This document shows, piece after piece, positions 5,088 through 25,989 of a stretch of 28,829 nt of DNA. Under the pieces are notes generated by a model. That model worked only from the letters and a program-made list of their open reading frames with translations. It made no database searches and was not told where the DNA came from. The stretch is from a virus, in IMG/VR virus record IMGVR_UViG_3300020475_000516, positions 1 through 28,829 of that record. One strand, 5' to 3'. Each line of letters begins with the position of its first letter. The stretch's first letter is position 1. Both the position numbers and the translations under genes were made by a program.

Positions 5088-6545
5088 TTATACTCCTTGG
5101 AATAAAACAAAGTTGTTAGCAGCTTGAGTTACTAAACATCTTTCTGATAGGAAGTTAACCTCCATAGCATCAAGATCTGAAGTATATGCTCCACCTGCAG
5201 AACCTGTTAACCAAGACTTCATTCTTCGGTCATCACTTTGAGAAGCTCTATATCTTACGTGTAAGAAAGGTCTTCTAATGTTTGTACCTAAAGTTTGATC
5301 GTAAACTGTTGTAGTACCTGCTGGTATTAATACACCTTCGATAGAAGCAGGACCAGTCATACCACCACGCGTAGAAGCGTCGTTTAAGTATTTCCAGTCT
5401 GTTTTATAGAAGTCGTATGAACCTCTTCTGAAACCACTAAAACCTAAGTTTAAAGCCATTTCTTCTGAGTTTTCAAATAATCCATAAGCAGTACCACCTG
5501 CAGCACCTGAAGAAATGTTAGCTAACATATCATCAAATTCTAAAGCAGTTTCTCTATTTAAGAAAAGCATGTTCTCTTCAATAGCACCTTGAGTATCTAA
5601 GTTTCTAAGAATCTCGTCAAAATCTCCAATACCTGTAGCTGTAGAGAAACCAACTTGTACATTACCTCTATCTTGGATAGCAGCAAATAAACCTTGAGAA
5701 CCAATAGCTCCTGATGCACCAGCAGCAACCGCAGAACCTCCTGCAGTTAATTCTGATTCAACGCACATCATTTCTAAATAGTCTTCAAATCTAAGTCTAG
5801 TTTCTGATTCAGCTTTTAGATACCATAAGTATCCTCCTGTTCCATCTTCTGTAGCAACTTCTACCCAACCAATTTGAGCCATATCAGAACCATTAACAAC
5901 ATATTTGTTTCTAATGATGATAGGGTTATTTTGGAATTGAGTAAATGCAGGGTCAACACTAATGTATTGTCCGTTTGCAAGAGTTGAAGTAGCACCAGCT
6001 CCTGGTACAAAGTTAGGAGTAACTGATCCTTTTCCATATTCAGCACCGTAAACAAATACTTTTACATTACCTACTAAACCAGCAGCTGCAATTGTAGCAG
6101 CAGTATAAGGTTCAACAGTAATAGTATTAGCACCTGGATCAGATACAGATACTAACGCTTTTACTTCTGCACCAAAGTCGTCCATAATTACTACGGTCGC
6201 TCTAGCAGAAACAACGTTGTTAATATCAGCAGCAGCAGTAGGGTTAACGTTAATTACGTTACCAGCTACAGTACAGCCATCATATGCAATATGTAATCTA
6301 TTTTGTTCAGACCAGATTACTTGGTCACTTGTCATAGGAAGTTCAGCACCAACCATTCTTAAGAATCCAGATAGAGTTCTGTTACCATATCTCTCAACTT
6401 CTTGTTCGTAGATTTCCGGTAAATACTGCTGTGCAAAATCCGCAAAGTTAGCAGCTCCAGCGTCTGTCCACTGTAAATAGTTAGACTGTAAAACCTCCTG
6501 TCTTTGTGATGGTACAATAGTACCAAATTGTGGGGTTAAAGCCAT
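5088..6545 (-). CDS. Major capsid protein (HK97-fold type), 485 aa
   Basis: This should be the main shell protein of the icosahedral head. It directly follows the scaffold and portal genes. At 485 residues it fits the 450-500 aa capsid proteins of crAss-like and related phages. It has a helical N-terminus (LPEIYEQEVERYGNRTLSGFLRMVG), then beta-rich Ala/Gly/Val/Thr sequence, and a helix with ETRLRFEDYLEMMCVESEL. The C-terminal segment runs FLHVRYRASQSDDRRMKSWL to LSERCLVTQAANNFVLFQ. I recognise this ending (LSxRxLVTxAANNF) as typical of capsid proteins in this phage group. No N-terminal protease domain or prohead-cleavage site is evident. The leader is A-rich with no Shine-Dalgarno. Gene order supports the call strongly; the exact family is from memory. 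Confidence 0.85.
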   Translation of the reverse strand: MALTPQFGTIVPSQRQEVLQSNYLQWTDAGAANFADFAQQYLPEIYEQEVERYGNRTLSGFLRMVGAELPMTSDQVIWSEQNRLHIAYDGCTVAGNVINVNPTAAADINNVVSARATVVIMDDFGAEVKALVSVSDPGANTITVEPYTAATIAAAGLVGNVKVFVYGAEYGKGSVTPNFVPGAGATSTLANGQYISVDPAFTQFQNNPIIIRNKYVVNGSDMAQIGWVEVATEDGTGGYLWYLKAESETRLRFEDYLEMMCVESELTAGGSAVAAGASGAIGSQGLFAAIQDRGNVQVGFSTATGIGDFDEILRNLDTQGAIEENMLFLNRETALEFDDMLANISSGAAGGTAYGLFENSEEMALNLGFSGFRRGSYDFYKTDWKYLNDASTRGGMTGPASIEGVLIPAGTTTVYDQTLGTNIRRPFLHVRYRASQSDDRRMKSWLTGSAGGAYTSDLDAMEVNFLSERCLVTQAANNFVLFQGV

Positions 6546-6556
6546 TTTTATTAATT

Positions 6557-7759
6557 TTAATTGTTAAAACTTTTCTTTTTAATTCTAAGTTTAGACGAAT
6601 CCGTTCCACTGACAGCTTTGACTTTAAAACCTTTTACAAATACGTCCCCACCGGCAACTTGCCTCGGCGCATTTATAGTTGGGTTCTTAGAGCCGTCCAC
6701 AACCTGTTTAATACCATCAGCTTTACCTTGCTCATAAAAATGAGTGGCAAGTTGATCTGCATTCATAGCTGTGTACATAGCTTTATGATAACCACTAGTA
6801 TCAACCATGTTACCCTTTTCATCAAGATAAGGATTAACAAAGTTATTAATATTAGATTGTTTATCACTAACAGCGTTTGGATTCTTAACATTATATCTAA
6901 ATTTTTGGTCTCCTACTTTAAAATCAAAACCTTTGAAATCTTCAGAAAACAATTTTTTAGTATTGTCTTTAAATCTTTTGTGCTGTTCTTCAACGACTTG
7001 TTGTTCGTCTTTATATCTATTGAAAAATTCCGTAGCTTTAGCTTGATCATCATTAACTACATTGCGGGTCTTAATAGACTCATAATATTGTTCTTTTAAT
7101 TTATCTAAATGGCTACGAGCTTCTGCAATAGCTTCTTTTTTAGCGAGTTGTTTTTTCTTGATGTCTCGCTCTTCATCAACCTCCTCATCATAATCAAAAG
7201 TGTCTTCCAGCATGAAAGATACTTCATCGTTATTAAGATGAGGTTTAGTATTTTTATAGTACTCCCTTAGCAATACATTTTCATCTATATTTGTATAATC
7301 TCTATTTAACCTAACATAGTCTTCCAATGTTCCACCAGTTTCATTCATAAAATCAACTAGTTTATTTAAATTTTCGGGAACCTTTATTTCTTCTTTTAAT
7401 TGTTTAACAGGTGTTTCTTCTTTATTAACTTCTTCAACACGCTCAATGATTGATTCTGGTTGTTCATCTGTATTGATGACCCGTATTTGTTCGTCCATTT
7501 CTGGGCTATCTCCGGGTGATTTTTCCACAGGAACATCCTCTGTTTTTCGCTCTTGAAGGGCATCTTGTTCTTTTTTATCTGTTAAATCAACTTTTACAAC
7601 TGAAGGTATAACTTCTCCTTGAGCTTCCGGTTTAGTTAAATCTACTTTAACTGGTTCGCTCTGGTTCATACCTAAGTTTTTAGTTTTTTGTTTAGGTTTA
7701 GACTTCATTTTAAAGTCACCTTCTTGTTTGACCTCTACGGCCGCTTTTTTTTCTGCCAT
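6557..7759 (-). CDS. Putative scaffolding protein, 400 aa
   Basis: A highly charged, mostly helical or disordered protein between portal and capsid, where scaffolding proteins normally sit. Residues about 1-145 are low-complexity K/E/V/P sequence with a repeated VKVDLT element. A segment with GGTLEDYVRLNRDYTNIDE and VSFMLEDTFDYDEEVDEERD then leads into a Lys/Glu coiled coil (residues about 195-285). A C-terminal part contains GYHKAMYTAMNADQLATHFY and a basic tail ending KLRIKKKSFNN, which could bind capsid subunits. The family assignment rests on composition, position and the LEDYV/LED pattern that I associate with phage scaffolds. The gap to the capsid gene is 11 nt. Confidence 0.7.
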   Translation of the reverse strand: MAEKKAAVEVKQEGDFKMKSKPKQKTKNLGMNQSEPVKVDLTKPEAQGEVIPSVVKVDLTDKKEQDALQERKTEDVPVEKSPGDSPEMDEQIRVINTDEQPESIIERVEEVNKEETPVKQLKEEIKVPENLNKLVDFMNETGGTLEDYVRLNRDYTNIDENVLLREYYKNTKPHLNNDEVSFMLEDTFDYDEEVDEERDIKKKQLAKKEAIAEARSHLDKLKEQYYESIKTRNVVNDDQAKATEFFNRYKDEQQVVEEQHKRFKDNTKKLFSEDFKGFDFKVGDQKFRYNVKNPNAVSDKQSNINNFVNPYLDEKGNMVDTSGYHKAMYTAMNADQLATHFYEQGKADGIKQVVDGSKNPTINAPRQVAGGDVFVKGFKVKAVSGTDSSKLRIKKKSFNN

Positions 7760-7776
7760 AATAAAATATTATATAA

Positions 7777-10170
7777 TTAATTAATATCCGCGGTACCAGT
7801 ATACTGACCCGGGCTTTCTAGTTCAAAATTTACAGGTAATCCATTAGAATTTCTTTGTTCAATCATTCTGCTTTGTTGAGTACCCTCTATTTTTGTTCTT
7901 TTGTCTTTGCGATCTTCTATCGCAGCTTCTTTAGCTTTCATTGCTTCAACTTCCATTTTCTTTAATTCTAAATCAAATTGATGTTGAACCTGCATTTCTT
8001 GTTGTTTAATTTGAGAAGCAGTTTGTAATCTTTGTATTTCCATTTGATTCTTAGCTTGTTCAAACTGTACATTAGAAGCGGTTAAAGCTTGTTGTTTTTG
8101 CATTTCAGCTTGAGCTTGTCTTTCACTAGCTTCTGCGTTTGCATTAGCTTGTGCTTGTATATTAGCTTGCTGAGCTTCTTGCATTTGTTTTTGCTTCTGC
8201 TTTCTTTTTTGCTTAAGCATTTGATTAGCAAGTTTTAAATTTTTAACCTGCCTAATATCAATAGCATCTTCTAAATCTACACCACCTTGTTGAAGAGACA
8301 TTTGTATGTTTTGTTCTAACATAGCTTTTTCTTCTTCTTCTGGTTCTAATTCTAAAAATATACCAAAATCATGTAATGAAAGATTTTGTATTTCACTTAA
8401 CGTTCCTACATTATAGGTGGATATAGAATTTTTAAGAGAATTTAATGTTAAAGGATCCTGTAAAGAATCTGCAATTTTAAGAGAAATATTCTCACATGTT
8501 CTTAATGTTAACCATAAACTAGCAGTTAAAATATGTCTTGTTGCAGTATTAGAAGCATTAGCAGCCATTTTTTGTAAACCTACTAATGTGTCTTTTTCAG
8601 GCAAACTACCATCTCTAGCTTCATTTAATCCGGTCACATCTCTTATTAACTGTAAATAGTATTGATAAGTTTGTATTAAACTTTGTATTTTAGCTCCACC
8701 ACTACCGGTTTGTAATTCTTGTATAGGTACTTTACCAGGATTCATGTCACCTTCTTGGGTTAAAGATCTACCTACAATACTACCAGTTTGGAAATACATG
8801 TTTAACGCTTCTGCTGGATTATAATTAGTACCATTACCTAAGTCAACCTCAGCAAGTCCATCCATATCTAAAAATACACCATCAGGTACCATTCTAGCAA
8901 TAACTTGTTGTAATTTTAAATGAGTTATTTGAATCATATCAGCAAAACCAGTTACTCTACTTACTAAGCTTTCAATTCTTCCTTTGTACATTCGAGGCGC
9001 GCATATAGTATAACTCATTTCTACTTTAGTAGTATCCGAAAAAGGTCTTGTCATGTTTTCAGACATTTTCCATTCTATAAGTTGGTTGTTACCTATAATT
9101 TTCGCTCCTTGATATAGTACTTCTATTTTTCTAGAAACAGTTTCAAAATTATCGCTGTCTGGTGGGTTAAACTGATCATCTTTAACTAACGCTTTTTGCA
9201 AGCCTTGATCTGTTTGTTTTATTTTAAACACCTGTGTGTTATATGTTTTATATTCAAAAAATAAAACCTGAACAGTGTTAGGATCGTAAGTTTGCCAACC
9301 ATACATGGTTTGAGAACTATATCCTTGAGTGTCTTGTATTTTGCTTAATTCTGCTTCTGCTAAACCAGGGAATCTTTTTGCAATTTCAGGAATAGTCATC
9401 GCTTTTACTTCACCTACATAATAAATATCTTCAAAGTTTGGATCTTCTGTGTATGAATATATTAAATAAGCTGGATCTACATAATCTACTGTTACTCCAT
9501 TTGCTTTATTCCAACTAGTTTTCACAGCACCAATACCTAATGTAACTAAATCTTGATTAAATCTTTTCTTTATATTATCAAATCTGTTTTTACTAAGCTC
9601 ATTGTTTATAACTTCTTCTTCAGCTATTTCTATAGACTGTTTATAAGAGAGTTGCATATGCAAGTCTAGCTCTTCTTCTGATTCAGGAAGTTTTGTTTTA
9701 TCAGTTTGGTATTCATCAAGACCTAGTGTGTTCTGTAAATTATCAAGATAAGGTTTAGCCGCCATATCTTGTAGTATAGCTGTAGCGTAATCAGTTCGTT
9801 TTTTTAAAGCAACTGGATCTTGAGCAAAAGCTTTTATTTCATAATCTTTATTAGATAATCCATTAACCACAATGTCAACAAACTTTGCTATAATAGGAAC
9901 TGGTTTCCAGTCTAAATTAAGATAGGACAAATCACCATTAATAGATAATTCATCTTTATATTTTTGAACTGGTTGTTCTCCTTTAGCATATAGTCTTCTT
10001 TGGTGAAACAAATTATAAGATAATGCAAAACGTGTGCCATTACCTCCTTGTCTCCACCATTCTGTTTCAATAGCTTGAGCAACTTTTCTACCGTATTCCG
10101 GAGTAGCTTTTTCCGCATCAGGAACTGTCTGACTAGGAAAAGTACTAGAGTAGTTTGTTGTAATATTCAT
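7777..10170 (-). CDS. Portal protein, 797 aa
   Basis: The portal forms the dodecameric ring at one head vertex through which TerL packages DNA. The gene directly abuts terL (the terL stop codon starts on the next base) and precedes scaffold and capsid. At 797 residues it matches the large portals of crAss-like phages. Portal-like features include an N-terminal helical region, VEMSYTICAPRMYKGRIESL, a long core helix around YYLQLIRDVTGLNEARDGSL, and the following helix with LVGLQKMAANASNTATRHIL. Residues about 650-760 are an extreme Gln/Ala/Lys/Glu coiled-coil tail (for example KQRKQKQKQMQEAQQ), probably the barrel helix reaching into the head. The start is the ATG in GAATATTACA-rich context without Shine-Dalgarno. 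Confidence 0.8.
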   Translation of the reverse strand: MNITTNYSSTFPSQTVPDAEKATPEYGRKVAQAIETEWWRQGGNGTRFALSYNLFHQRRLYAKGEQPVQKYKDELSINGDLSYLNLDWKPVPIIAKFVDIVVNGLSNKDYEIKAFAQDPVALKKRTDYATAILQDMAAKPYLDNLQNTLGLDEYQTDKTKLPESEEELDLHMQLSYKQSIEIAEEEVINNELSKNRFDNIKKRFNQDLVTLGIGAVKTSWNKANGVTVDYVDPAYLIYSYTEDPNFEDIYYVGEVKAMTIPEIAKRFPGLAEAELSKIQDTQGYSSQTMYGWQTYDPNTVQVLFFEYKTYNTQVFKIKQTDQGLQKALVKDDQFNPPDSDNFETVSRKIEVLYQGAKIIGNNQLIEWKMSENMTRPFSDTTKVEMSYTICAPRMYKGRIESLVSRVTGFADMIQITHLKLQQVIARMVPDGVFLDMDGLAEVDLGNGTNYNPAEALNMYFQTGSIVGRSLTQEGDMNPGKVPIQELQTGSGGAKIQSLIQTYQYYLQLIRDVTGLNEARDGSLPEKDTLVGLQKMAANASNTATRHILTASLWLTLRTCENISLKIADSLQDPLTLNSLKNSISTYNVGTLSEIQNLSLHDFGIFLELEPEEEEKAMLEQNIQMSLQQGGVDLEDAIDIRQVKNLKLANQMLKQKRKQKQKQMQEAQQANIQAQANANAEASERQAQAEMQKQQALTASNVQFEQAKNQMEIQRLQTASQIKQQEMQVQHQFDLELKKMEVEAMKAKEAAIEDRKDKRTKIEGTQQSRMIEQRNSNGLPVNFELESPGQYTGTADIN

Positions 10171-12381
10171 TTATTTAATTATTTTTGAAACTATACCGCT
10201 GTTGTTATATTTCTTTATACCTAACTCTATAGGTTCTCTTTTTCTTCTACTTACTGGTGCGTATCTATTTTTATTGCAAGCCATTAAAGCTAGTCCAGAA
10301 CTAATAGATGCATCATGAGTAGTTCTATTATTTATATCAAATTTTGCCCAATCTTCTAATGTTCTTTGAAAATAAACATCTCCATAAGAATCTCCATTAA
10401 AACCAACCATAGTTTCTATGTAAGATTCTATAGCCGCAGCGTGAGCTTGTTTTATGTCTTCACTTGAATTAGGTATTCCACCTATTTCTTTTTCTGTAAC
10501 AGATAATTTATTCCAAATTTTATCTGGTCTATTCATAGCAAAACCTCTATATCCTCTTCTTTTAAAATGATATAAAAGTCTTGGTTTATTGTTTTCCGCT
10601 AGTATTGGCATTCCATAAAATACACACGCCATTAAAACATCTTCAAAAAATATCTCTGCTGTTTGAGGTCTAGCTATATATTCTAGAAAAAAATGATTTG
10701 CTGGAGCATCTTCCATGCTAAACTTTGTAAGTCCATGAAGAGAACCATTAGAACCTCTTTTATCTACTGTTCCTGATATATCATATGGGTCACATCCAAA
10801 TGCTCCAATATGTTCATTTCCAGGATATTTAACACCGTTTTTTTCAATATATCTATTTTGTATAATAGAATTAGGAACCCAAGTAATAAAAAACCTGCCT
10901 TGATTGCTGGGGTAAAACATAACCCTACTATCTTTAATCCCACTTTCCCATTGAAAATTACCCTGTGTTACTAATTTTTTACCATTTATATCTTCATTAT
11001 AATCAATTTGTTGATATATTTTTGTTAAATTAAACAAAGAAGATTTAGATTCATCTCTAAACGCGTGCTTAGTTGTTCTTGGAAATTGTCTATAAAATTC
11101 ATTTAACGCATCGGCATCATCTTTTAAACCATCTACTTCATTTTGCCAATAATCAATTACACCTAAATATATTTCTTCTCCTTGTGGTCCTTGAACAGTT
11201 TGTTTTGGTGTGTCGAATACAGGTATGCCATAAGAATCGATGTATCCTTCGTAGTTCCATTCCATAGGTATGAACAAACTATATAGTCCCGAACGAGTCT
11301 GTCCGTTGGCGTTTCTTTTCGTGATGTCTGAATCATCATATAATTTTTTAAAATTTCTACCTCCTTTATCTAAAGCATTTGAAGTAGAACCCATCATACA
11401 TTTACCAATAATTCTACTACCTAATCTTAATGTTGTTTTAGTAACTCGCCAATTATTTAAAATATTATTAGGTCTTTCCCATTTTCCAGATTCATCATGA
11501 ACTAATAACTTTAATTTTTCACCATCATAACTATTGTCCCCTGTATTTTTCCAATCAATAGTTGTATCAAGACCTTGTAGTTCTGTAGAAGCTTCATTAG
11601 TTATAAGTTTACGTCTAGTTAATTTAGTAGCGGGAACTCTATAAGCTAATTCCGTTTTAGGTCTATCCATACCGTCTTGAATAGGTTTAAAAAAGAAAGG
11701 ATAGTTGACTGAAATAGGAACAACTTTATCTGTAAACATTGTTTTAGCGTCAGGTCCTGATTTAGATAATATACCATATCTTGAATCTGAATTTAATGTA
11801 GCTAAATTAACTGTTTCACCTGAAGCCATAAATGAAAAACCAGAACGTCTGTTTTTTAAATAACACATCCCATAGGATCTAACATCTGCTTTACAAGCTT
11901 CCCAAAATATAAAAAATAATCTATTTGCTTCTCTAAAATCAGGTTTACCTACATCAATTTTACTCCACTGTAAATACATATAATGACTACCGGTTAAGTA
12001 CGTAGGTTCATCTTTGTTGTAAAACCAAAACCCGTTTTCTCTACGATTAAACTCTATATCTATATAATCATACCATGTTTCTTTAAAGTCTAAAGGATAA
12101 TCTTCCCAATCAAATATAGTTTTTATACGTTTTAACTCTTTTGGTAACGGTGTATATTCCCATTTATTTTCTTTAAAACTAACTACATCTTCTTTTAAAG
12201 GTAATGCTATTTTTAAACCTTGTATTTCATATATTTCACCTATTTTTCCTGTTTTACTTATAACAACTACATCGTGTTCTTTATTGTAACCGTACTTCCA
12301 CTTGTTGTATCGGTTTTGTTGTTTAAGTACTTTAGGTTTTATATGATCTTTTAATACTTTATATAACTCTTGCTTATACAT
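10171..12381 (-). CDS. terL: Terminase large subunit (packaging ATPase/nuclease), 736 aa
   Basis: TerL pumps DNA into the prohead and cuts concatemers. The order of motifs fits. A P-loop-like NRRSGFSFMASGE sits near residue 175; it departs from the canonical GxxxxGKS, with Arg/Lys before the loop instead. Walker B LLVHDE lies near residue 292 and the coupling motif MMGSTSN near 330. The RNase H-like nuclease domain shows an acidic GCDPYD near residue 530, PILAENNK near 600, and a late Asp in DASISSGLALM near 690. The large size fits crAss-like terminases. The start overlaps the stop of the upstream 92-aa gene by one base (TAATG), which implies translational coupling. The next gene is portal, with zero spacing. 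Confidence 0.85.
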   Translation of the reverse strand: MYKQELYKVLKDHIKPKVLKQQNRYNKWKYGYNKEHDVVVISKTGKIGEIYEIQGLKIALPLKEDVVSFKENKWEYTPLPKELKRIKTIFDWEDYPLDFKETWYDYIDIEFNRRENGFWFYNKDEPTYLTGSHYMYLQWSKIDVGKPDFREANRLFFIFWEACKADVRSYGMCYLKNRRSGFSFMASGETVNLATLNSDSRYGILSKSGPDAKTMFTDKVVPISVNYPFFFKPIQDGMDRPKTELAYRVPATKLTRRKLITNEASTELQGLDTTIDWKNTGDNSYDGEKLKLLVHDESGKWERPNNILNNWRVTKTTLRLGSRIIGKCMMGSTSNALDKGGRNFKKLYDDSDITKRNANGQTRSGLYSLFIPMEWNYEGYIDSYGIPVFDTPKQTVQGPQGEEIYLGVIDYWQNEVDGLKDDADALNEFYRQFPRTTKHAFRDESKSSLFNLTKIYQQIDYNEDINGKKLVTQGNFQWESGIKDSRVMFYPSNQGRFFITWVPNSIIQNRYIEKNGVKYPGNEHIGAFGCDPYDISGTVDKRGSNGSLHGLTKFSMEDAPANHFFLEYIARPQTAEIFFEDVLMACVFYGMPILAENNKPRLLYHFKRRGYRGFAMNRPDKIWNKLSVTEKEIGGIPNSSEDIKQAHAAAIESYIETMVGFNGDSYGDVYFQRTLEDWAKFDINNRTTHDASISSGLALMACNKNRYAPVSRRKREPIELGIKKYNNSGIVSKIIK

Positions 12382-16136: not shown

Positions 16137-16607
16137 TTATTTATTATTACTTATACTTTTAAATTTTTCCGCACCTCGTGAGCCAAAATAGGCTACATAA
16201 ACAGTGACTAATAAAGTTTTCAATAATTCTACCCAGCCAGTATCTACTGTGAAGGTCCATTGAAAACTATCTAATATTATTAAAATTACCATAGAAATTG
16301 TAAGAAATATTAAAGATATTGGGCGTGTATTTTTACTTAACCATGAATCTGATTTCATGTCGCTTTCCCATCTTTTTGATACTTCTTGCATTTCTATTAT
16401 GTCCATTTCTAAAAGCTTCATAGCTTTTTCTTTATCTTCTGGTTGTAATACAGTATCAGGTTCTTTTTGTATTAAGTTTTTAACCATACCTAAAACACCT
16501 TGATCTGGTAATACATCACCAACAGTACCTAAAATTCCAGGTGCTGCTTTTGATAAAAAAGCTCCTACTTTAGTTTCAGAAAATTTTTTTTTATTTTTTG
16601 TTGCCAT
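16137..16607 (-). CDS. Putative holin (GTA_holin_3TM-like), 156 aa
   Basis: Holins collect in the inner membrane and open it at a set time to start lysis. Residues 1-80 are amphipathic and include GAFLSKAAPGILGTVGDVLP. Then come the charged SDMKSDSWLSKNTRP stretch, a hydrophobic segment at 97-115 (ISLIFLTISMVILIILDSF), and a second at about 126-142 (WVELLKTLLVTVYVAYFGS). It ends GSRGAEKFKS. The pattern SDMxSDSWLSKNxRP...DS...YFGSRGxEK is the one I know from the 3TM holin family. Two membrane segments are evident; the third would lie in the weaker N-terminal part. No endolysin is seen in this window. The ATG lies inside the end of the upstream 58-aa gene (17-nt overlap). Confidence 0.65.
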   Translation of the reverse strand: MATKNKKKFSETKVGAFLSKAAPGILGTVGDVLPDQGVLGMVKNLIQKEPDTVLQPEDKEKAMKLLEMDIIEMQEVSKRWESDMKSDSWLSKNTRPISLIFLTISMVILIILDSFQWTFTVDTGWVELLKTLLVTVYVAYFGSRGAEKFKSISNNK

Positions 16608-16767
16608 AGGGAAACATTTTATTTAAAGCGTTTCTTCTTTCATTACAACCACAAGGTTTGTCTACTTTTTCAGATATTACATCTACTACCTTTTTAATTC
16701 CAGTAGCAGTTGTAAATTTATGTATTGTATCTCCCAAGCCTTTAGATTCATTACTTTTATTATTCAT
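16591..16767 (-). CDS. Small CGC-motif protein, 58 aa
   Basis: Translated by hand from the ATG at 16765-16767 to TAA at 16591-16593. It begins MNNKSNESKGLGDTIHKFTT and contains GIKKVVDVISEKV. A C-terminal motif reads KPCGCNERRNALNKMFPYGN. The CGCxxRRxxLNxxFPY ending is one I recall from small proteins of Bacteroidetes-infecting phages, which supports reality despite the length. The Cys pair could hold a metal or act in redox. It overlaps the holin candidate by 17 nt, so the two are translationally coupled. Its start lies at the edge of the ATTTA repeat. Confidence 0.65.
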   Translation of the reverse strand: MNNKSNESKGLGDTIHKFTTATGIKKVVDVISEKVDKPCGCNERRNALNKMFPYGNKK

Positions 16768-17096: not shown

Positions 17097-17657
17097 TTAA
17101 ACTTTTTCTTTTGGTTGTACTTTTGCAAAAGTTTCTTGAGCGTGATCACGCGCATCAGCTAATAGATTTTTACCGCTCAAAGCGCCTTCTACTTTACCTA
17201 ATGCTTTCATACTTTTATATGCTTTACTTCCTCTTTGAACAAATTGAGTACCTTTTTTAGCTAGATTAGCAGCGGCAAATGCGTCTCCAGCGCCTGGCAC
17301 TGAAGAAAGACCATAAAGAACTGCGTTTTTACCATGTTGTTTAGCAGCGTCTTTATCTCCTGTTGCTAAAGCATGCAAACTTCTTCCACCAGATATAGCA
17401 GTATTAAGTATATCAATACCTGCTCCAATCGGACCTGGTGCAAAACCACCAACTGTAAGAACATCTTGAAATCTATCCAACCAACCTCTAGAGCTTTCAT
17501 TTTTAGAACTAGGTTTGCCTAGCTGCACATCAGAAGCTATATTATTTAGCTGTATAACTTGATCTGCTGGTGGTGTTTCTTGTTTTTCATCTCCCATTAC
17601 CCTTTTTCCAAATGCAAGTGGGGAGTTATGCCTACCTGGTTTTAAATAAAAAGGCAT
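17097..17657 (-). CDS. SPL-tagged protein with hydrophobic Gly/Ala-rich middle, 186 aa
   Basis: The N-terminus MPFYLKPGRHNSPLAFGK carries the SPL tag. A polar linker follows. Residues about 65-150 are Gly/Ala-rich amphipathic helices (GGFAPGPIGAGIDILNTAIS, VLYGLSSVPGAGDAFAAANL). This GxIPGxG / VPGAGDA pattern resembles the linker or pre-toxin domains that precede toxins in secreted proteins, and also membrane-active phage internal proteins. No toxin domain follows; the C-terminus is basic and polar. A virion internal protein that interacts with membrane during DNA entry is possible. The 5' neighbour abuts with zero spacing. Confidence 0.65.
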   Translation of the reverse strand: MPFYLKPGRHNSPLAFGKRVMGDEKQETPPADQVIQLNNIASDVQLGKPSSKNESSRGWLDRFQDVLTVGGFAPGPIGAGIDILNTAISGGRSLHALATGDKDAAKQHGKNAVLYGLSSVPGAGDAFAAANLAKKGTQFVQRGSKAYKSMKALGKVEGALSGKNLLADARDHAQETFAKVQPKEKV

Positions 17658-18191
17658 TTAGCTCATTTTCTTGTCACCAGAAAACTTGTGATTGTGAAAA
17701 TGTCTTTCCATTCCTTCAGACTCATGTCTACGATCAACAAGCGCTTGGCTTTTGTGACCATGCTTTCCACCTAAAGCGTCATCAAGTCTAGCGTTGTAAC
17801 CTTGATCTTTTAAAGGTGAAACCATTTTTGCCATAGATCCATCTTTTTCATCTTTATTGTAATGCATTGCTGATTGAAGTTCTACAGGTAATTTTTTTTC
17901 TTGCGCATCACTTAAGTGAGCCTTTACAGGCGAACTAAATCTTTGTGTAGCGTGCTTAGACATCCAAGACATACCTCTTCCACCAGTCATATCTTTAGTA
18001 AGTGGCATATCTGTTAACTCTCTAGAATCAGCATATCCCTTATTTTGATTTTTAGCTGGAGAATTGCTGGCTAGCATTCTATTACTAGAACCTTCTTCTT
18101 CTCTTTTTTTCTTATCATCTTCAAAGATTTTATCTTTGTCATCTCTGATTTGAATTCTTTCTTCAGCCATGTCTTTATCGTAATCTGCCAT
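17658..18191 (-). CDS. Charged disordered protein with three S-P-x-K motifs, 177 aa
   Basis: A hydrophilic protein with an acidic/basic mixed N-terminus (MADYDKDMAEERIQIRDDKD) and His/Asp/Lys-rich C-terminus ending HFHNHKFSGDKKMS. It holds three copies of the tag: NSPAKN near residue 44, SSPVKA near 87 and VSPLKD near 125. It has no hydrophobic core and is probably largely disordered. The repeated tag makes it the centre of the tagged-protein cluster; it could be a cargo, scaffold or processing substrate. The start is ATG after AAAATTAAAATT with no Shine-Dalgarno. Confidence 0.65.
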   Translation of the reverse strand: MADYDKDMAEERIQIRDDKDKIFEDDKKKREEEGSSNRMLASNSPAKNQNKGYADSRELTDMPLTKDMTGGRGMSWMSKHATQRFSSPVKAHLSDAQEKKLPVELQSAMHYNKDEKDGSMAKMVSPLKDQGYNARLDDALGGKHGHKSQALVDRRHESEGMERHFHNHKFSGDKKMS

Positions 18192-18209: not shown

Positions 18210-18470
18210 TTATTTTTTCTTTTTTGTATATTTGCAACGCGTGTTTAACGCTGGTGTACCATCATCATCATATCCATCATCTCCAGCAAATCTTTGCGGA
18301 TCTTGACTTTCATAATCTGGTTCTGGTTCGTTTATTTGAGGAAGAATATCAGAGTTTTTTATTGACTCTTCCTGTTGTTTTTTGCTTTTAGCATCTAATT
18401 CTTCCATAGTAAAAGTCTTTTCTTTTAATGGACTTTTAGCACTAAATGTTTTTTGGAATGGTGAACTCAT
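18210..18470 (-). CDS. Small SPLK-tagged protein, 86 aa (paralogue of upstream gene at N-terminus)
   Basis: The first 15 residues, MSSPFQKTFSAKSPL, match the next upstream gene at 14 of 15 positions. The rest is unrelated: helix MEELDAKSKKQQEE, then acidic Asp/Gly/Pro-rich EPEPDYESQDPQRF, a GDDGYDDDG stretch and a basic tail with one Cys ending KYTKKKK. A conserved tag on a variable body suggests a targeting or processing signal. The start overlaps the upstream stop by one base (TAATG). Confidence 0.65.
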   Translation of the reverse strand: MSSPFQKTFSAKSPLKEKTFTMEELDAKSKKQQEESIKNSDILPQINEPEPDYESQDPQRFAGDDGYDDDGTPALNTRCKYTKKKK

Positions 18471-18709
18471 TATTTCTCTTGATTTTTATTTTTATTTTTT
18501 ACTTGCATTTTATCAAACTCGTCTGGATCTATATAACCATGCTTATCAACGTGGGCACTATAAGCTTTGTCATATTTATTAGTTATATCTAAAGCAAACT
18601 CATCTGGAACAGACGCTACTTTATGAATTTCTTTATCGTATCCACTACCTGTTGTATTAGTGTTTAATGGCGACTTAGCGCTAAACGCTTTTTGAAATGG
18701 TGAACTCAT
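18470..18709 (-). CDS. Small SPL-tagged protein, 79 aa
   Basis: It begins MSSPFQKAFSAKSPLNTN, the same N-terminal tag as the following gene, and then diverges: SGYDKEIHKVASVPDEFALD, a Lys/Tyr/Asp-rich YDKAYSAHVDKHGYIDPDEF, and a basic Asn/Lys tail. The middle is acidic-basic and may fold as a short helix. No known domain is recognised. It is coupled to the next gene (1-nt overlap) and separated by 3 nt from the previous one. Confidence 0.65.
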   Translation of the reverse strand: MSSPFQKAFSAKSPLNTNTTGSGYDKEIHKVASVPDEFALDITNKYDKAYSAHVDKHGYIDPDEFDKMQVKNKNKNQEK

Positions 18710-18712
18710 AGT

Positions 18713-18913
18713 TTAACTATTAGCGTGGTAAGCTGCTAAAACTTTATCTGCTTCTTCTTTGCTTGCAAATCCGTCTCTCCAAATACCACCTTTTTTATTA
18801 TTTAGGATAACAAATTTACCCCCTCTTTTTACTACACAACCTGAACCTCCTTCAGATTTTGCACATCCTTTGCCACTTGCTAAAAATGGACTTCCATACT
18901 GTATATAAGTCAT
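18713..18913 (-). CDS. Small Cys/Gly-rich protein with SPF motif, 66 aa
   Basis: The N-terminus MTYIQYGSPFLASGKGCAKS contains an SPF element related to the tags of its neighbours. Two Cys residues (GKGCAK and SGCVVKRG) follow. The rest, GKFVILNNKKGGIWRDGFAS, then a helix EEADKVLAAYHANS, resembles a short beta-hairpin plus helix domain. The helix ending is like that of small phage proteins with an ASKEEADKVLAAYHA pattern, but no function is known to me. Confidence 0.65.
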   Translation of the reverse strand: MTYIQYGSPFLASGKGCAKSEGGSGCVVKRGGKFVILNNKKGGIWRDGFASKEEADKVLAAYHANS

Positions 18914-19765: not shown

Positions 19766-20143
19766 TTAAATTATTTTGTTTCTTTCTTCAGGTGTGTTAA
19801 ATATTTGATTAGCATTATTAACCATTCCTTTTGAAAAACCAGTTTCATTATACGCTCCAGGCTGTATATTACCTGTCATGGTTGTTTCCATAGGATTTAA
19901 TATTCTTTGATCTAATTCATTTATTCTTTGAGCTTCAAAATTAGTAGTATCCATTTGCTCACCTTGATGCATAGTAGCTTCATGGTTTGAAATAGAGTTA
20001 TTATTTTTAGAAGCGGTCATCATTAAATTTGCAATACCAGCTAAACCACCAGTTCTACCAGTTAAAGTAGCGTTACCGGATCCACCAGTTCCAAATGCAG
20101 CAGAACCTGCTGCTCCTAATAATTTTAATGGACTTTTATTCAT
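19766..20143 (-). CDS. SPLK-tagged glycine/alanine-rich protein, 125 aa
   Basis: It begins MNKSPLKLLGAAGSAAFGTG, so the tag is at residues 3-7 (KSPLK) and is followed by a Gly/Ala low-complexity hydrophobic stretch of about 35 residues. The remainder is Met/Asn/Gln-rich and polar (MDTTNFEAQRINELDQRILN, MNPMETT-like). This tag-plus-hydrophobic design resembles the 186-aa protein further along. The start overlaps the winged-helix-like gene by 4 nt (ATGA), so it is coupled to the groEL-groES-regulator set. Confidence 0.65.
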   Translation of the reverse strand: MNKSPLKLLGAAGSAAFGTGGSGNATLTGRTGGLAGIANLMMTASKNNNSISNHEATMHQGEQMDTTNFEAQRINELDQRILNPMETTMTGNIQPGAYNETGFSKGMVNNANQIFNTPEERNKII

Positions 20144-20580
20144 CTGTTTTTATTTACATTTTTAATGGAAGTTTGTAAAACTTTATCTATATAAGTTTCA
20201 CCTTTCATTATTTTATTTCTTCTAGTACTAGTAGGTATATCTTCTTCATTTAACATAATTCTATAAATTCTTTGTATTAATTGTTTACCTTTAAATGAAA
20301 TTTTATATATATTAAATTTTTGAGTAGTTCTATTTCTATGTCGCCAAACCACTATCCAATCATTTTGTATAAGTTTATTCCAGCGCCTATTATCCCAACT
20401 ATAAGAATAACTGCCTAGTTCAAAATCTTTTTTACTAAACAAATCTATACAATCAAGATATATTAATAGTTCTAAATCAGCGTCATTCAAGCCGTTGTTT
20501 TTACAAGCCCATTTGCGTATTATACGGTAATGTTGCAGCAGTTTCAGATTTTTTACATCTGACGCCTCTAGCTTTTTCAT
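20140..20580 (-). CDS. Putative winged-helix (MarR-like) DNA-binding protein, 146 aa
   Basis: Residues about 12-50 form three short helices (LLQHYRIIRKWACKN, DADLELLIYLDCIDLFSK). Residues 60-72 (YSWDNRRWNKLIQNDW) look like a recognition helix. IVVWRHRNRTTQKFNIYKIS forms a plausible two-stranded wing near 76-96, and a final amphipathic helix (GKQLIQRIYRIML) follows. This is the MarR-type winged-helix order; the helices match by eye only. It could be a late-gene regulator or a virion DNA-binding protein. Its start overlaps groES by 4 nt (ATGA) and its stop overlaps the SPLK gene by 4 nt, so its level tracks the chaperonin genes. Confidence 0.55.
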   Translation of the reverse strand: MKKLEASDVKNLKLLQHYRIIRKWACKNNGLNDADLELLIYLDCIDLFSKKDFELGSYSYSWDNRRWNKLIQNDWIVVWRHRNRTTQKFNIYKISFKGKQLIQRIYRIMLNEEDIPTSTRRNKIMKGETYIDKVLQTSIKNVNKNR

Positions 20581-20837
20581 AAAACAACGACGACATCCCT
20601 GTCTTTTATAACATAGTACTTTTCATTTTTTAATTCAATGAAATGACCAGCATGTCTATCATAAAATATTTTATCATTTTTTTTAACACCTAAAACTTCT
20701 TCACCTACAGAAATAACTACAGCTTCAACATATCTAATATCGCTTCTATCATTTTTACTTAATAGTAAACCACCTTCAGATTTAGTAATATTTTCCTCTA
20801 TTTTTTGTATAATTAAATTTTTACCTACTGCTTTCAT
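20577..20837 (-). CDS. groES: Phage GroES-type co-chaperonin, 86 aa
   Basis: Reads as GroES: the start KAVGKNLIIQKIEENI gives the first strand, EGGLLLSK is the mobile loop (GGIVL in E. coli) that contacts GroEL, VVISVGEEVLGVKKNDKIFY matches GEVLAVG and VKVGDIVIF, and the end reads YYVIKDRDVVVV. At 86 residues it is slightly short of the 97-residue family norm. I choose the ATG at 20835-20837; a TTG one codon upstream is less likely. It starts inside the end of groEL, overlapping by 17 nt, so groEL is upstream. This is the reverse of the usual bacterial groES-groEL order. It caps the GroEL chamber in the cytoplasm while phage proteins fold. Confidence 0.8.
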   Translation of the reverse strand: MKAVGKNLIIQKIEENITKSEGGLLLSKNDRSDIRYVEAVVISVGEEVLGVKKNDKIFYDRHAGHFIELKNEKYYVIKDRDVVVVL

Positions 20838-22362
20838 CAATTCTAATATTATTAATTACACAATCAGTGGATAATATAGTAGTTGCTACAGAAGCCGCAT
20901 TAGTCAAAGCGCTTTTTGTTACCAATAATGGATCAATTATGCCTTCGTTTACCATGTGTACCATATTTCCTGTAACTACATTTATTCCATAACCTTCTTT
21001 TTTAGGAACGTTAGGAGTTATGCCAGCGTTTTCAAGTATTGTTTTAAATGGGTATAATATAGATTTTAATAATATCTCTTCGCCAATGTTTTTTTCATTA
21101 ATACTTGTTGCGGCATTTAATAATGCAATTCCACCACCAGAAACTATACCTTCTTTAATCGCGGCTTTAGTAGCGCATATAGCATCTTCTACTCTATCTT
21201 GTTTTTCTTTTAATTCAATATCTGAATTAGCGCCTACTTTTACTATAGCTACTTTAGCAGATAGTCTAGCTAATCTTTGCTCATAACCTATAACTTGATG
21301 TGGTTTTAATTTTGTAGTTAATTTTTCTTTTATATTAGAAATTATATCTTCTACTTCACTATTTACATCATTTACTTGAATTATAGTTTGATCATTACCG
21401 GTAGTTGTTTTTAAACATTCACCTAAATAATCTATTTGTATTGAATTTAAATCATCACCTAAATCCTCATTTATAATTTGAGCATTAGTAAGAATAGCTA
21501 AATCTTCTAGTATTTCTTTACGTCTTAATCCAAAGGCTGGTGGATCAACAACATTTATTTTTATATTACCTTTTATCTTGTTCATTACAAGAGCAGATAA
21601 AACAGGCGCTTCTACTTGTCCTATTATAAATAAAGCTTTATTTGCTTTTATAACATGTTCTAGTATTCCTTGTATTTGTCTTATAGAATCAATTTTAGAA
21701 TCAACTATTAAGACAAGAGGTTTATCTAATTCACATGTAGACGCTTCTTTATTTGTTATAAAGTTTTGGTTTAACAAACCTTTGTCATACTCTACGCCTT
21801 CAACAATTTCTATTTTTGTTTCACCTAATGAAGATGGTTCCATTATTACAACACCAGTTTTACCTACAGCTGTAAATGCTTCTTCAATTAAACTACCTAA
21901 TTTTTTATCATTATTTGTTGATATTGTAGCAATTTCTTTTATTTTGTCTTCTACTGGAACCGATACGTTATTTAAATAATTTATAACTTTATCTACAGCT
22001 GATAAAATACCTTCTTTAATTAATCTAGCATTTGTTTTATCTAATTTAGCATAAGCTTCCTTTAATATAGCGTGTGCAAGAATTGTTGCTGTGGTTGTAC
22101 CATCTCCAGCTTCTTTAACTGTTTTACGCGCTGCTTCTTTTATAAGTCTAGCGCCAATATTTTCTACAGGATTTAATAAGGTAATTGAATCTGCTACAGT
22201 AACACCATCTTTGGTTATTATGGGATTACCTTGCATGTCTTCAAGAATAACACATTTGCCGCTAGCTCCTAAAGTAGAGCTAACAGCTTTTGTGAGTTTT
22301 TCTATACCTTTAAATACCTGGTCTCTAGCTTCATCGCCAAAGTTCAGATTTTTTACTATCAT
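20821..22362 (-). CDS. groEL: Phage-encoded GroEL-type chaperonin (60 kDa family), 513 aa
   Basis: Clear group I chaperonin, about 35 residues shorter than E. coli GroEL (548). Hallmarks: ITKDGVTVA with D52, GDGTTTATILA with D87 (same numbering as E. coli), RVEDAICATKAAIKEG holding the catalytic D398 equivalent, and VSGGGIALLN. The apical domain runs roughly from EYDKGLLNQNFI to the INEDLGDDL region. Departures: TLGPKG becomes TLGASG at the phosphate loop, and the SPYF substrate/GroES surface becomes NQNF (Y199L, S201N, Y203N by alignment). The C-terminal GGM tail is missing. Folding of capsid or other phage proteins, as with T4 gp31-GroEL, is the likely job. Preceded by a TTAAA repeat leader; overlaps groES. 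Clearly intact. Confidence 0.9.
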   Translation of the reverse strand: MIVKNLNFGDEARDQVFKGIEKLTKAVSSTLGASGKCVILEDMQGNPIITKDGVTVADSITLLNPVENIGARLIKEAARKTVKEAGDGTTTATILAHAILKEAYAKLDKTNARLIKEGILSAVDKVINYLNNVSVPVEDKIKEIATISTNNDKKLGSLIEEAFTAVGKTGVVIMEPSSLGETKIEIVEGVEYDKGLLNQNFITNKEASTCELDKPLVLIVDSKIDSIRQIQGILEHVIKANKALFIIGQVEAPVLSALVMNKIKGNIKINVVDPPAFGLRRKEILEDLAILTNAQIINEDLGDDLNSIQIDYLGECLKTTTGNDQTIIQVNDVNSEVEDIISNIKEKLTTKLKPHQVIGYEQRLARLSAKVAIVKVGANSDIELKEKQDRVEDAICATKAAIKEGIVSGGGIALLNAATSINEKNIGEEILLKSILYPFKTILENAGITPNVPKKEGYGINVVTGNMVHMVNEGIIDPLLVTKSALTNAASVATTILSTDCVINNIRIDESSR

Positions 22363-23763: not shown

Positions 23764-25989
23764 TTAACTACAGTTACCTGTTAAATTTTGTTGTATTATT
23801 GGAGCAACTTCCCAACTATAAGGTGCACTCATACTTTGAGTCATACCTACACCTCTTATTCTATATGCATTTGGTACTGCTTGATCTTGAGGACCTTGAC
23901 TCCAATTTGTGGTAGTAGAATCCATACTTCCAGCACCAAAAGCTCTATGAGTAAACCCAGCAGCTAAAAGCTTTGGATCTGTTTCTTCTAATAATATTGG
24001 AATTGTTACTACATCAACAGCTGTATTTCTACTATCCCACGGTGGAGGACCACTTTCGTTTACATAATTTTCATTAGTCATTAAAGGTAGTAAACCAGAT
24101 GCGGTTGTAGTAGCAGGACTATATAATGTCCAATCAGTAGAATCTTTAGGTCCGTTATTTCTTTGCCATATTCTTACATTAGCACTTCTAAGTTCATTTA
24201 TAAAACCAAATATTTCTTCACCTTGTGGAATAATTCCTGCTTGTTGGAGTTTTACAAATGTATTTGTTACACCACCGGAACCACCATAATTCTGTCTAAA
24301 AGTTTGACCCCAAGTACTTCCTTGAATTCTCCATAATGGTCTCATGTTTATACCTTTTATAGTTATCCAAGCGTTACCACCTGATATACCCGAGTCTGGA
24401 GCTCCGTTTCTCCAAAATATTGGATTAGTATCTCCTATGTATGTACTATCTGGATTTGTTGTACCAGCTAATTTTGATTGTGAAAGAGTTTCATCTAATC
24501 TATATAAACCACCTTCAGCTGCGTCTACTACAGTAGGAACACCATTCATTATTAAAAATTCTGGATTTGGATCTCCCATGTCAAGATTATATGTTCCAGC
24601 TGGAATTGTTAAAACATTCATGTTAATACCTGAAATTCCTAGTTGTGGAATGAATATACCCTCGCCATGAACTATTTGATTTATGCTGAAAGGATACACA
24701 CTTGTTTTACCAAATGTAGGATTTATAACAGGTGTTGCATTGTAATCTGCTTCAGTAGGATTACCATCTTGACCACCTATAGAAATAATTGATGGAACAA
24801 CTATATCTTGAGCATAAGTATTTGTATCAACTTCATCACAAAAACGACTACCTATGTCATTTTCATATCCTGAAATTTGTGTTCCGTTGCCATTACTAGC
24901 AGTAGGCCAAGTAACACCAAGTCCAGTTTGTCTTATTCTAAAATCTGAGCTATTATAATAATCACCAGCGCTTAACGATACACCTGCAATATCTGGGGCG
25001 GTTGCTGTAGGCCAAACACCTCCTGTACCAATACCACAACACCCAGGATTACTAATAGCGTATGCTTGACCACCGTTAGGAGTAGCTAAAAGAGTTCCAA
25101 TCGATGGATCATTTGGATTCATCAGGTCTGGAGTATAAGAAGTTCTATCAGATGTAAAGATTTGTTGTATATTAGCTTCGCATATAGTATAACCACCTAT
25201 TGCTCCTCTAAAAACGTTAACTAATACACTTCCAGGATTACTAGCTATTGCATTTCTAAATGCAGCTGGTGATGAACCAGAACCTTCAGCAGCACATGGT
25301 TGATCACAACCAGCATCTGCTTGATTAGCGCATTGTTCAGCGGCTATCCATTGAAATAAAATATAATTACCGTCTATTAAAGGTTCTAAATTTAATGTTT
25401 TATCTGTTTCGTTCCAAATAGTTTTAAAAATATTTGTATGAACTGGCGGAGTGGCATTAATTGTTAAATCAGATGCAACAACACATTCTACTGAATCTGC
25501 AATTGCAGGAACAGCTTCACACGGATCATCTCCTTCAGGAACTAAATAAGCCATAACAGTAGGTAAAGAAGACTCTGCACTAAATACATAACCAGGCTTC
25601 AGCATTGGCGCATAATCATTTAATGTTATATCACTAGTAGCATGAACTACACCTGATAAAATAGAATTCATCCATTTCGTGAAAACATCTAAAATATCTA
25701 AATGAGTATCTCCAAATGAAATTTTTATATCTCCATTTACAAAATCAGTACTAGACAACGTATATAAATCTGTCTTATATCCTCCAGGTTGGCTAGGATC
25801 CTCTATACAAGTTTTAACATCTCCTTGCGTGTAATAATAGCTTTGATCTACTCGAGGTATTTCTAATGGAGTTGATCCCACTTGAAAATAAACTATATTT
25901 AGTGAATTTCCCTCTCTAAAGATATTTTTAATACTATCTAGTTGTATTGGTTTTAAAACACCATCAGGTTGTCTAATATATCCGTACAT
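23764..25989 (-). CDS. Large Cys-containing appendage/tail-type protein, 741 aa
   Basis: A 741-aa beta-rich protein beginning MYGYIRQPDGVLKPIQLDSI. It is rich in Gly, Thr, Asn and Pro with many Cys (for example GCDQPCAAEG and SNPGCCGIG), unusual for an intracellular protein and suited to disulfides or metal in an exposed virion protein. Near residue 250 it has SPAAFRNAIASNPGSVLVNV, the helix-(A/S)NPG motif shared with three other proteins here. The C-terminal half has GDPNPEFLIMNGVPTVV and ends SWEVAPIIQQNLTGNCS. It follows fibre-type genes and precedes small genes. A receptor-binding or fibre role is likely but unproven. No peptidase, lyase or glycosidase motif could be read. Confidence 0.7.
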   Translation of the reverse strand: MYGYIRQPDGVLKPIQLDSIKNIFREGNSLNIVYFQVGSTPLEIPRVDQSYYYTQGDVKTCIEDPSQPGGYKTDLYTLSSTDFVNGDIKISFGDTHLDILDVFTKWMNSILSGVVHATSDITLNDYAPMLKPGYVFSAESSLPTVMAYLVPEGDDPCEAVPAIADSVECVVASDLTINATPPVHTNIFKTIWNETDKTLNLEPLIDGNYILFQWIAAEQCANQADAGCDQPCAAEGSGSSPAAFRNAIASNPGSVLVNVFRGAIGGYTICEANIQQIFTSDRTSYTPDLMNPNDPSIGTLLATPNGGQAYAISNPGCCGIGTGGVWPTATAPDIAGVSLSAGDYYNSSDFRIRQTGLGVTWPTASNGNGTQISGYENDIGSRFCDEVDTNTYAQDIVVPSIISIGGQDGNPTEADYNATPVINPTFGKTSVYPFSINQIVHGEGIFIPQLGISGINMNVLTIPAGTYNLDMGDPNPEFLIMNGVPTVVDAAEGGLYRLDETLSQSKLAGTTNPDSTYIGDTNPIFWRNGAPDSGISGGNAWITIKGINMRPLWRIQGSTWGQTFRQNYGGSGGVTNTFVKLQQAGIIPQGEEIFGFINELRSANVRIWQRNNGPKDSTDWTLYSPATTTASGLLPLMTNENYVNESGPPPWDSRNTAVDVVTIPILLEETDPKLLAAGFTHRAFGAGSMDSTTTNWSQGPQDQAVPNAYRIRGVGMTQSMSAPYSWEVAPIIQQNLTGNCS

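Follow-up and report, generated by a model that had tools for sequence, protein, structure and literature searches.

Two neighbouring genes that share almost all of their first 15 residues but have different bodies raise a simple question: what keeps the beginning of a protein constant when the rest does not stay the same? The genes lie in IMG/VR virus record IMGVR_UViG_3300020475_000516, positions 1 to 28,829; throughout, the window means this whole stretch of 28,829 nucleotides. A sequence-only reading of the window had proposed that the arrangement is more than simple gene duplication with drift, implying that the N-terminus is under selection or that a tag has been recruited to new bodies again and again. 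Here we find that the 15-residue start is one form of a shorter motif, so that the phenomenon is broader than that reading had seen; the motif is enriched on the strand that carries the large terminase gene (TerL), is constrained at the protein level, occurs on unrelated bodies, has been exchanged on some of them, and is bound to one phage clade. We give about an even chance to the reading that the tag is a movable docking peptide by which accessory proteins are taken into the virion as cargo, in analogy to the capsid targeting sequence of T4. A summary of the features discussed in the window is available in Table 1.

Table 1. Features of the window in and around the cluster of tagged genes.
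Feature	Position	Strand	Remarks
Head module	5088..12381	-	PHROGs; transcribed after the cluster; same order in relatives
Virion structural protein, taken as major capsid protein	5088-6545	-	PHROG
Scaffold-like	6557-7759	-	by position only
Portal	7777-10170	-	PHROG
TerL	10171-12381	-	PHROG
Holin-like (PHROG lysis)	16137..16607	-	phrog_3427, E 6.5e-20; other side of the cluster
HExxHxxQ...E mini-metallopeptidase, 103 aa	16783..17094	-	leader MAFKLGKPPY
Gene starting MPFYLKPGRHNSPLAFGKR	17097..17657	-	
Neighbour with three internal SP[AVL] motifs	17658..18191	-	SNSPAKNQNKGY, SSPVKA, VSPLKD
Tagged gene A, 86 aa	18210..18470	-	tag MSSPFQKTFSAKSPL encoded at 18426-18470
Tagged gene B, 79 aa	18470..18709	-	tag MSSPFQKAFSAKSPL encoded at 18665-18709
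Leader MTYIQYGSPFLAS with GKGCAKSEGG body	18713..18913	-	
Gene starting MNKSPLK	19766..20143	-	relatives start MKKSPLN or MKNSPLK
Phage GroES-like	20577-20840	-	Pfam Cpn10; upstream of the cluster
Phage GroEL-like	20821-22362	-	Pfam Cpn60; upstream of the cluster

The translations of the two open reading frames bear out the earlier description: the frames overlap by one base, and their starts (together MSSPFQK[TA]FSAKSPL) agree at 14 of 15 residues. At the DNA level the two 45-nt starts differ synonymously at codons 5 (TTC/TTT), 10 (AGT/AGC), 12 (AAA/AAG), and 13 (AGT/TCG), and by amino acid at codon 8 (ACA/GCG); because of the four synonymous differences, the starts are not a fresh DNA copy of one another. 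The bodies fall into separate families at blastp E≤1e-3, so the view that they are unalike holds at that threshold; by eye, however, the body of gene B (HKVASVPDEFALD) resembles another tagged family (HKVASVNDKYAVD) below the E-value cut, and a few of the different bodies may therefore be very distant relatives. Conservation across the full length, the opposite of what the sequence-only reading proposed, is confined to the closest relatives of gene A, at 50-97% identity (97, 97, 95, and 50% in L003-L006). Gene A has no Pfam, PHROG, or NCBIfam match, and gene B has no Pfam or PHROG match and one NCBIfam line at E 0.018, far below the cut-off; for the window's small genes as a whole, almost nothing matched in the three collections.

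Copies of the tag are found well beyond this locus. A degenerate DNA pattern for P-F-Q-K-x-F-S-A-K-S-P-L matched 20 stretches in the 2.9 million viral contigs of IMG/VR; all 23 matches lie three codons after an in-frame ATG, 20 of the 23 frames have no earlier ATG, and the ORFs have very different lengths and bodies. A slightly looser pattern, run on 257 Gb of bacterial and archaeal contigs, found one stretch, outside any predicted ORF. With close variants included, 30 distinct first-tag sequences form 12 body families (single linkage, blastp E≤1e-3); in the larger set described below the number is 11. Local duplication alone is thus ruled out by the 20 stretches and the many body families—a recent duplication without copies elsewhere does not describe these data. 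Further genes starting in the same way, which the sequence-only reading had suggested looking for, number in the dozens and have many bodies.

A second tag, M..F[ST]SPFMAKSPL, was first noticed in relatives and gave 49 matches in 44 stretches, with an in-frame ATG no more than 30 codons upstream in 41. Of the eight without such an ATG, L178 lies outside any ORF and the seven others represent four distinct fused proteins; L187, one of the 41 (ATG 3 codons upstream), is internal to a longer ORF on a contig where TerL has no match, and is probably due to chance. Both tags and their close variants amount to 70 distinct proteins in 27 body families, which supports the idea of repeated recruitment to new bodies. 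The core common to the two tags is F-x-x-K-S-P-L, spaced as SPF-x6-K-SPL in the window and SPF-x2-K-SPL in the second form. A 23-aa tag query (tblastn) had no match in 50,697 named-phage records, a weak result since the query is short; among the open-access papers searched, no listed title or abstract opening describes the tag, and a full-text search for letter strings gave no paper.

The tags belong to a more general motif, since shorter [SN]P[LF] starts such as MKKSPLN, MYTQYSSPFF, MNSPFYK, and MAYIQ..SPFL are common. In the cluster upstream of the head module, 59 of 332 genes carry [SN]P[LFM] in their first 30 residues, against 5.9±2.4 after shuffling (maximum 14 in 1000 shuffles); for other genes on the same strand the count is 14 of 473, and for later windows 30 of 935. 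This set includes contigs that were picked for bearing the tag. In 23 contigs picked only by TerL, the motif is found in 22 of 252 cluster genes and in 10 of the contigs. Shuffles gave 4.5±2.0 (maximum 13), later windows 20 of 737, and the reversed motif 2. Six long contigs of 59.6-69.4 kb were counted by strand: G042, G034, G023, G031, and G021, which come from the scan for the second tag, and G008, which was found by TerL. The motif occurs in 39 of 288 genes on the TerL strand (~4.7 expected by shuffling) and in 2 of 191 on the other (~2.5 expected); all six bear the second tag, so the strand contrast is the informative part of this count. One of the 39, a conserved G021 gene at 25645 that follows the capsid gene, is probably a chance match. 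The sister contig G014 has the motif in 1 of 49 genes on the TerL strand and 0 of 40 on the other. A chance origin of the tag is ruled out by the bacterial and archaeal scan, the spacing to ATG, and the shuffles of TerL-picked contigs. We also considered phage-specific dialects of the tag, suggested by NNPLSRKTSPL in G008/L038; leaders are no more alike within genomes than between them (difference 0.05, matched or exceeded in 886 of 2000 permutations, for 63 proteins in 14 contigs), which does not support the idea.

Selection on the N-terminus, one of the two readings originally offered, is supported by the substitution pattern. Tag and body have equal synonymous divergence (pS 0.36 and 0.35) but differ in pN/pS (0.28 and 0.51, respectively), as estimated from 67 non-independent within-family pairs at 50-97% identity. 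Codons 10 and 12-15 of the tag vary synonymously across families, including switches of serine between AGY and TCN. Codons 2-3 are another matter: they read AGT TCA in 12 of 12 body families, where codon usage would lead one to expect 0.28 and 0.25, and this invariant pair may mark a recombination joint, some other DNA-level signal, or an effect on translation start. In the window AGT TCA lies at 18462-18467 and 18701-18706. Constraint on the peptide is also seen in a family with a GKFTA domain: its leaders vary in length, and SP[LFM] is present in those of 47 of 47 distinct proteins (shuffled 2.2, maximum 8); these 47 come from the best 80 of 369 relatives as ranked by a tag-bearing query, and in an earlier set of 14 rows L141 was without SP[LFM]. 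Loci with the GKFTA domain include L007, L013, and L016, among others, and L113-L117.

Bodies can be followed from one leader to another. The TPWSKY body occurs under both tags—starting MSSPFQKTFSAKSPL in L007 and MNNRFTSPFMAKSPL in L023—with 56% identity over the 75 residues after the tag; in a second family with both tags, the members are linked by no more than partial similarity (E 3e-5 to 8e-4). Bodies of the DUF6321 family carry differing tags in L070 and L160 and none in G019, G014, and L112, and the untagged G019 body is 87% identical to that of L070. In the four distinct fused proteins (loci L013, L177, L020, L014, L022, L023, and L189; e.g., L013:4952, L023:940, and L189:9421), an upstream domain (TKDSLQ...F[FY]SPK) is followed by an internal tag, FSTPFMAKSPLK, and then by three different bodies; in L174 the second tag stands at residue 51 of an ORF, before the body known from L023. 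The GNHKK family has an internal RSPLKKNSPLEGSY, and by eye its homologues that stand alone, in L015 and L017, start with MKSPLNSY or MKKTNSPFQMKSPLNSY. The tag is portable, given the 27 body families, the swapped and untagged bodies, and the fused proteins with their three bodies.

The phages concerned belong to one clade. The window portal matches PHROG portal families, with Pfam P22_portal below the cut-off, and has 87 relatives among named records (best 48.8% identity), 86 of them phages of Flavobacterium, Cellulophaga, Tenacibaculum, and Maribacter and one a Manatee Spring record. In the record of Maribacter phage Panino (PP540027, L030), an annotated tmRNA at 358-690 overlaps tRNA genes. 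TerL has relatives in at least 600 stretches; among 26 records checked for the 44 second-tag stretches, TerL was found in 23 and the capsid protein in 22. Among 38 distinct IMG/VR contigs (window included) whose sequence upstream of TerL is 7 kb or more, and many of which were picked for the tag, the cluster motif is present in 25 and absent in 13; L014 (a contig in its own right, though listed as a copy of G017), other loci marked as copies, and the duplicates L004, L019, and L025 are left out of this count. Nine of the 13 motif-less contigs have 9-14 cluster genes. The motif is thus not essential, being absent in 13 of these 38 contigs and 13 of the 23 picked by TerL. In six named relatives it occurs in 0 of 47 cluster genes, two of these phages offering only 0 and 3 genes. 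In one named relative, L027, a gene begins MKSPFYFIAK; by eye it is homologous to the MKSLYDFIV gene next to TerL, and here the motif is probably due to chance.

In the window itself, 5 of the 16 cluster genes have [SN]P[LFM] in their first 30 residues. Leaders around the two tagged genes are variable: the GKGCAKSEGG body starts by eye with MAYIQNNPLSRHSSPLLAN in L033 and MGYTQFSSPFLKA in G023, both differing from the window's leader, and homologues of the gene starting MPFYLKPGRHNSPLAFGKR have NSPFAIG in G015/L005 and no motif in G001 (KPGKHNQQ). A short conserved, tagless protein of the form GLGDxIxKFTxATGIKKxVD...PCGC, encoded at 16591-16767 (-), is found in many cluster contigs. Terminator-like sites number 9, against 4.2±2.0 in shuffles, and a promoter scan gave 48 sites with no excess over shuffles (53.0±6.5). 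The scaffold-like protein and its relatives have a conserved N-terminal KQEGDFKIKSKPK that resembles leaders of the MAFKMKSPF type; there is no clean co-variation (tagged G008 has EGGDMKISK, tagless G014 GGNFKIK), and the likeness is a lead that may reflect chance or a real link to a receptor of the tag.

The mini-metallopeptidase that adjoins the tag cluster, here as in many contigs of the clade, has a leader of its own. H53, E54, H57, and E95 are invariant in 43 sequences, of which only E95 is independent evidence, the rows having been pre-selected for HExxHxxQ. An AF2 model (pLDDT 85) retrieved abylysin, selecase, and IrrE in Foldseek (best E-value 0.04, probability 1.0). With HExxH and a downstream glutamate in place, the 103-aa protein has a predicted fold that fits minigluzincins and IrrE-like peptidases (abylysin, selecase, PprI), from which it differs by an added N-terminal MAFKLxxPPY leader. 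Its relatives start M[ASG][FY] in 55 of 58 cases and have P[FY] within the first 12 residues in 51 of 58; a G014 homologue has no such leader. The case for it as a carrier of the same tag is weakened by the rarity of [SN]P[LFM] in those 12 residues (3 of 58), most sequences having a related-looking NPPY form.

One tagged body connects the cluster to crAss-like phages. A profile-to-profile comparison with hhalign pairs the tagged GKFTA body with a domain found in crAss-like proteins (probability 98.7%), and the match in cr128_1 sits in a protein with the Pfam crAss_CARG1 domain (E 1.6e-66). The crAss-side GKFTA profile finds residues 373-423 of phi-crAss001 cargo protein 1, gp45, at E 0.0035, and a search with a single crAss-like domain finds gp45 at E 0.048. 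The tagged proteins' own profile reaches gp45 in the PDB at E 0.12, below titin at E 0.028, which we take as a chance match. The AF2 model of a GKFTA protein has a low-confidence leader and a body of three helices (pLDDT ~85); the three-helix model gave no useful fold match in the PDB, and in BFVD the fold matches include the compact domain of cargo protein 1 at E 0.012 to 0.29. Weaker matches are a crAss-like PolyVal ADP-ribosyltransferase and a Thermus phage P74-26 protein, both by fold at E ~0.3, and one in a virus listed under Methanofastidiosa. According to PMC10172136, mass spectrometry and cryo-EM place gp45 in the virion. What is shared with cargo protein 1 of the Crassvirales is only this separate GKFTA domain and not the PF25725 (crAss_CARG1) domain, for which Pfam had no match in one GKFTA protein, in the two tagged genes of the window, or in further genes of the cluster. 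In five crAss-like records the GKFTA domain is part of a larger protein (four) or a short protein (one, cr50_1, between the portal and capsid genes), none with an SP tag; the link to crAss-like phages is therefore one of a cargo-type body, not of tag-driven loading. Among the large late proteins of G001, a relative of the window, one has a further crAss element, the muzzle C-terminal domain PF25729 (L119:12564-14159, E 2.3e-10), which suggests a crAss-like tail tip in the clade.

A known system with a comparable arrangement is that of the T4 internal proteins. Ip1-3 are described as homologous in nothing but an N-terminal leader, by which they are packaged (PMC12373910), and the leader as taking Ip proteins into the scaffolding core and able to carry foreign proteins (PMC3012670). 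The T4 proteins resemble the tagged proteins of this clade: both are small, diverse, several per genome, and share a short N-terminal leader. Unrelated small proteins under one short leader are indeed what we observe, in 27 body families and two tag forms. In contrast to T4, the clade has a portal of the P22/PHROG type and a motif that can be internal; the likeness described here is one of arrangement. Peptidase_S78 was found in none of 8 clade contigs, with 4 of 14 control genomes matched; the search for Peptidase_S77 matched no control genome and is uninformative. The T4 leader is removed by cleavage; unlike in T4, no cleavage site is evident in the tagged proteins. Extracellular contractile injection systems likewise use a short disordered N-terminus to load unrelated cargo into a phage-derived particle, although the machine is different and the likeness is by description only. 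By analogy, the clade's tag looks like the T4 solution reached with another peptide.

Under the preferred reading, a short peptide that is predicted to be disordered and built on [SN]P[LF] would head small, fast-changing proteins made late in infection, as strand and position suggest. During head assembly the motif would bind some part of the clade's virion (the scaffold, the portal, the lumen of the capsid, or a protein inside the virion), and in this way the tagged proteins would enter the particle and be injected along with the DNA. As effectors the bodies could be exchanged for one another, a domain of crAss-like cargo protein 1 among them, and only the tag would have to stay constant. A bolder version, to which we would give slightly under an even chance, is a general cargo code in a widespread, uncultured clade: one swappable peptide would be sufficient to load any small protein, the tag DNA would serve as a shuffling joint, and each tagged phage would inject ~5-8 interchangeable proteins, including the domain shared with crAss-like phages.

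The motif could instead act inside the infected cell, bringing accessory proteins made late to some partner of phage or host origin, such as the phage chaperonin, the lysis machinery, the replication complex, or a site on the membrane. Such a role would suit a cluster that lies between phage GroEL/GroES and holin-like genes, a motif that can be internal in fused genes, and the large presumed internal proteins of G001 (237, 471, and 3177 aa), which have no tag at their start; it sits poorly with the scarcity of the motif on the other strand (2 of 191 genes), with its tracking of one capsid and terminase clade, and with a tagged body that is a cargo-protein domain. The six named relatives, five of which infect flavobacteria, show no motif in their 47 cluster genes, which makes a host partner in particular less likely. 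We regard docking inside the cell as unlikely.

The two remaining alternatives concern how the pattern arose. If the conserved start were mainly a DNA-level recombination joint for exchanging bodies, the peptide being incidental, the identical AGT TCA in all 12 body families would follow naturally, as would the fused proteins with one upstream domain and tag before three bodies; yet DNA identity would not yield the synonymous variation and AGY/TCN switches at codons 10 and 12-15, and SP[LFM] is kept in 47 of 47 leaders that differ in length and sequence. As the sole cause a joint is largely refuted and highly improbable, with a possible second role for the first codons. Ordinary paralogy—duplicated genes whose disordered bodies diverged past recognition under a conserved N-terminus, without swapping—has to contend with the well-conserved DUF6321 and TPWSKY bodies, which bear different tags or none, and with fused proteins that switch body after the same tag, as drift cannot do. 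It draws on bodies of separate families that look distantly alike by eye (HKVASV), on several that look low-complexity, and on the both-tag family joined only by partial similarity. Refuted for the DUF6321 and TPWSKY families, it may hold for part of the 27, and as a general account we consider it improbable.

If loading into the virion is the correct reading, the tag would be a label, readable from sequence, for the injected accessory proteins of a large clade, and some of its 'dark' late genes would become predictable cargo, though not all of the TerL-relative stretches will be tagged. T4 internal proteins counter host restriction, and the clade would offer an independent parallel to them in phages whose named relatives have mostly flavobacterial hosts. 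The tag would also be a short peptide with which proteins of choice could be put into a podovirus-like particle. Even without a destination in the virion, a peptide that is held constant while its bodies change is a clear example of modular evolution in proteins, and suggests one conserved partner.
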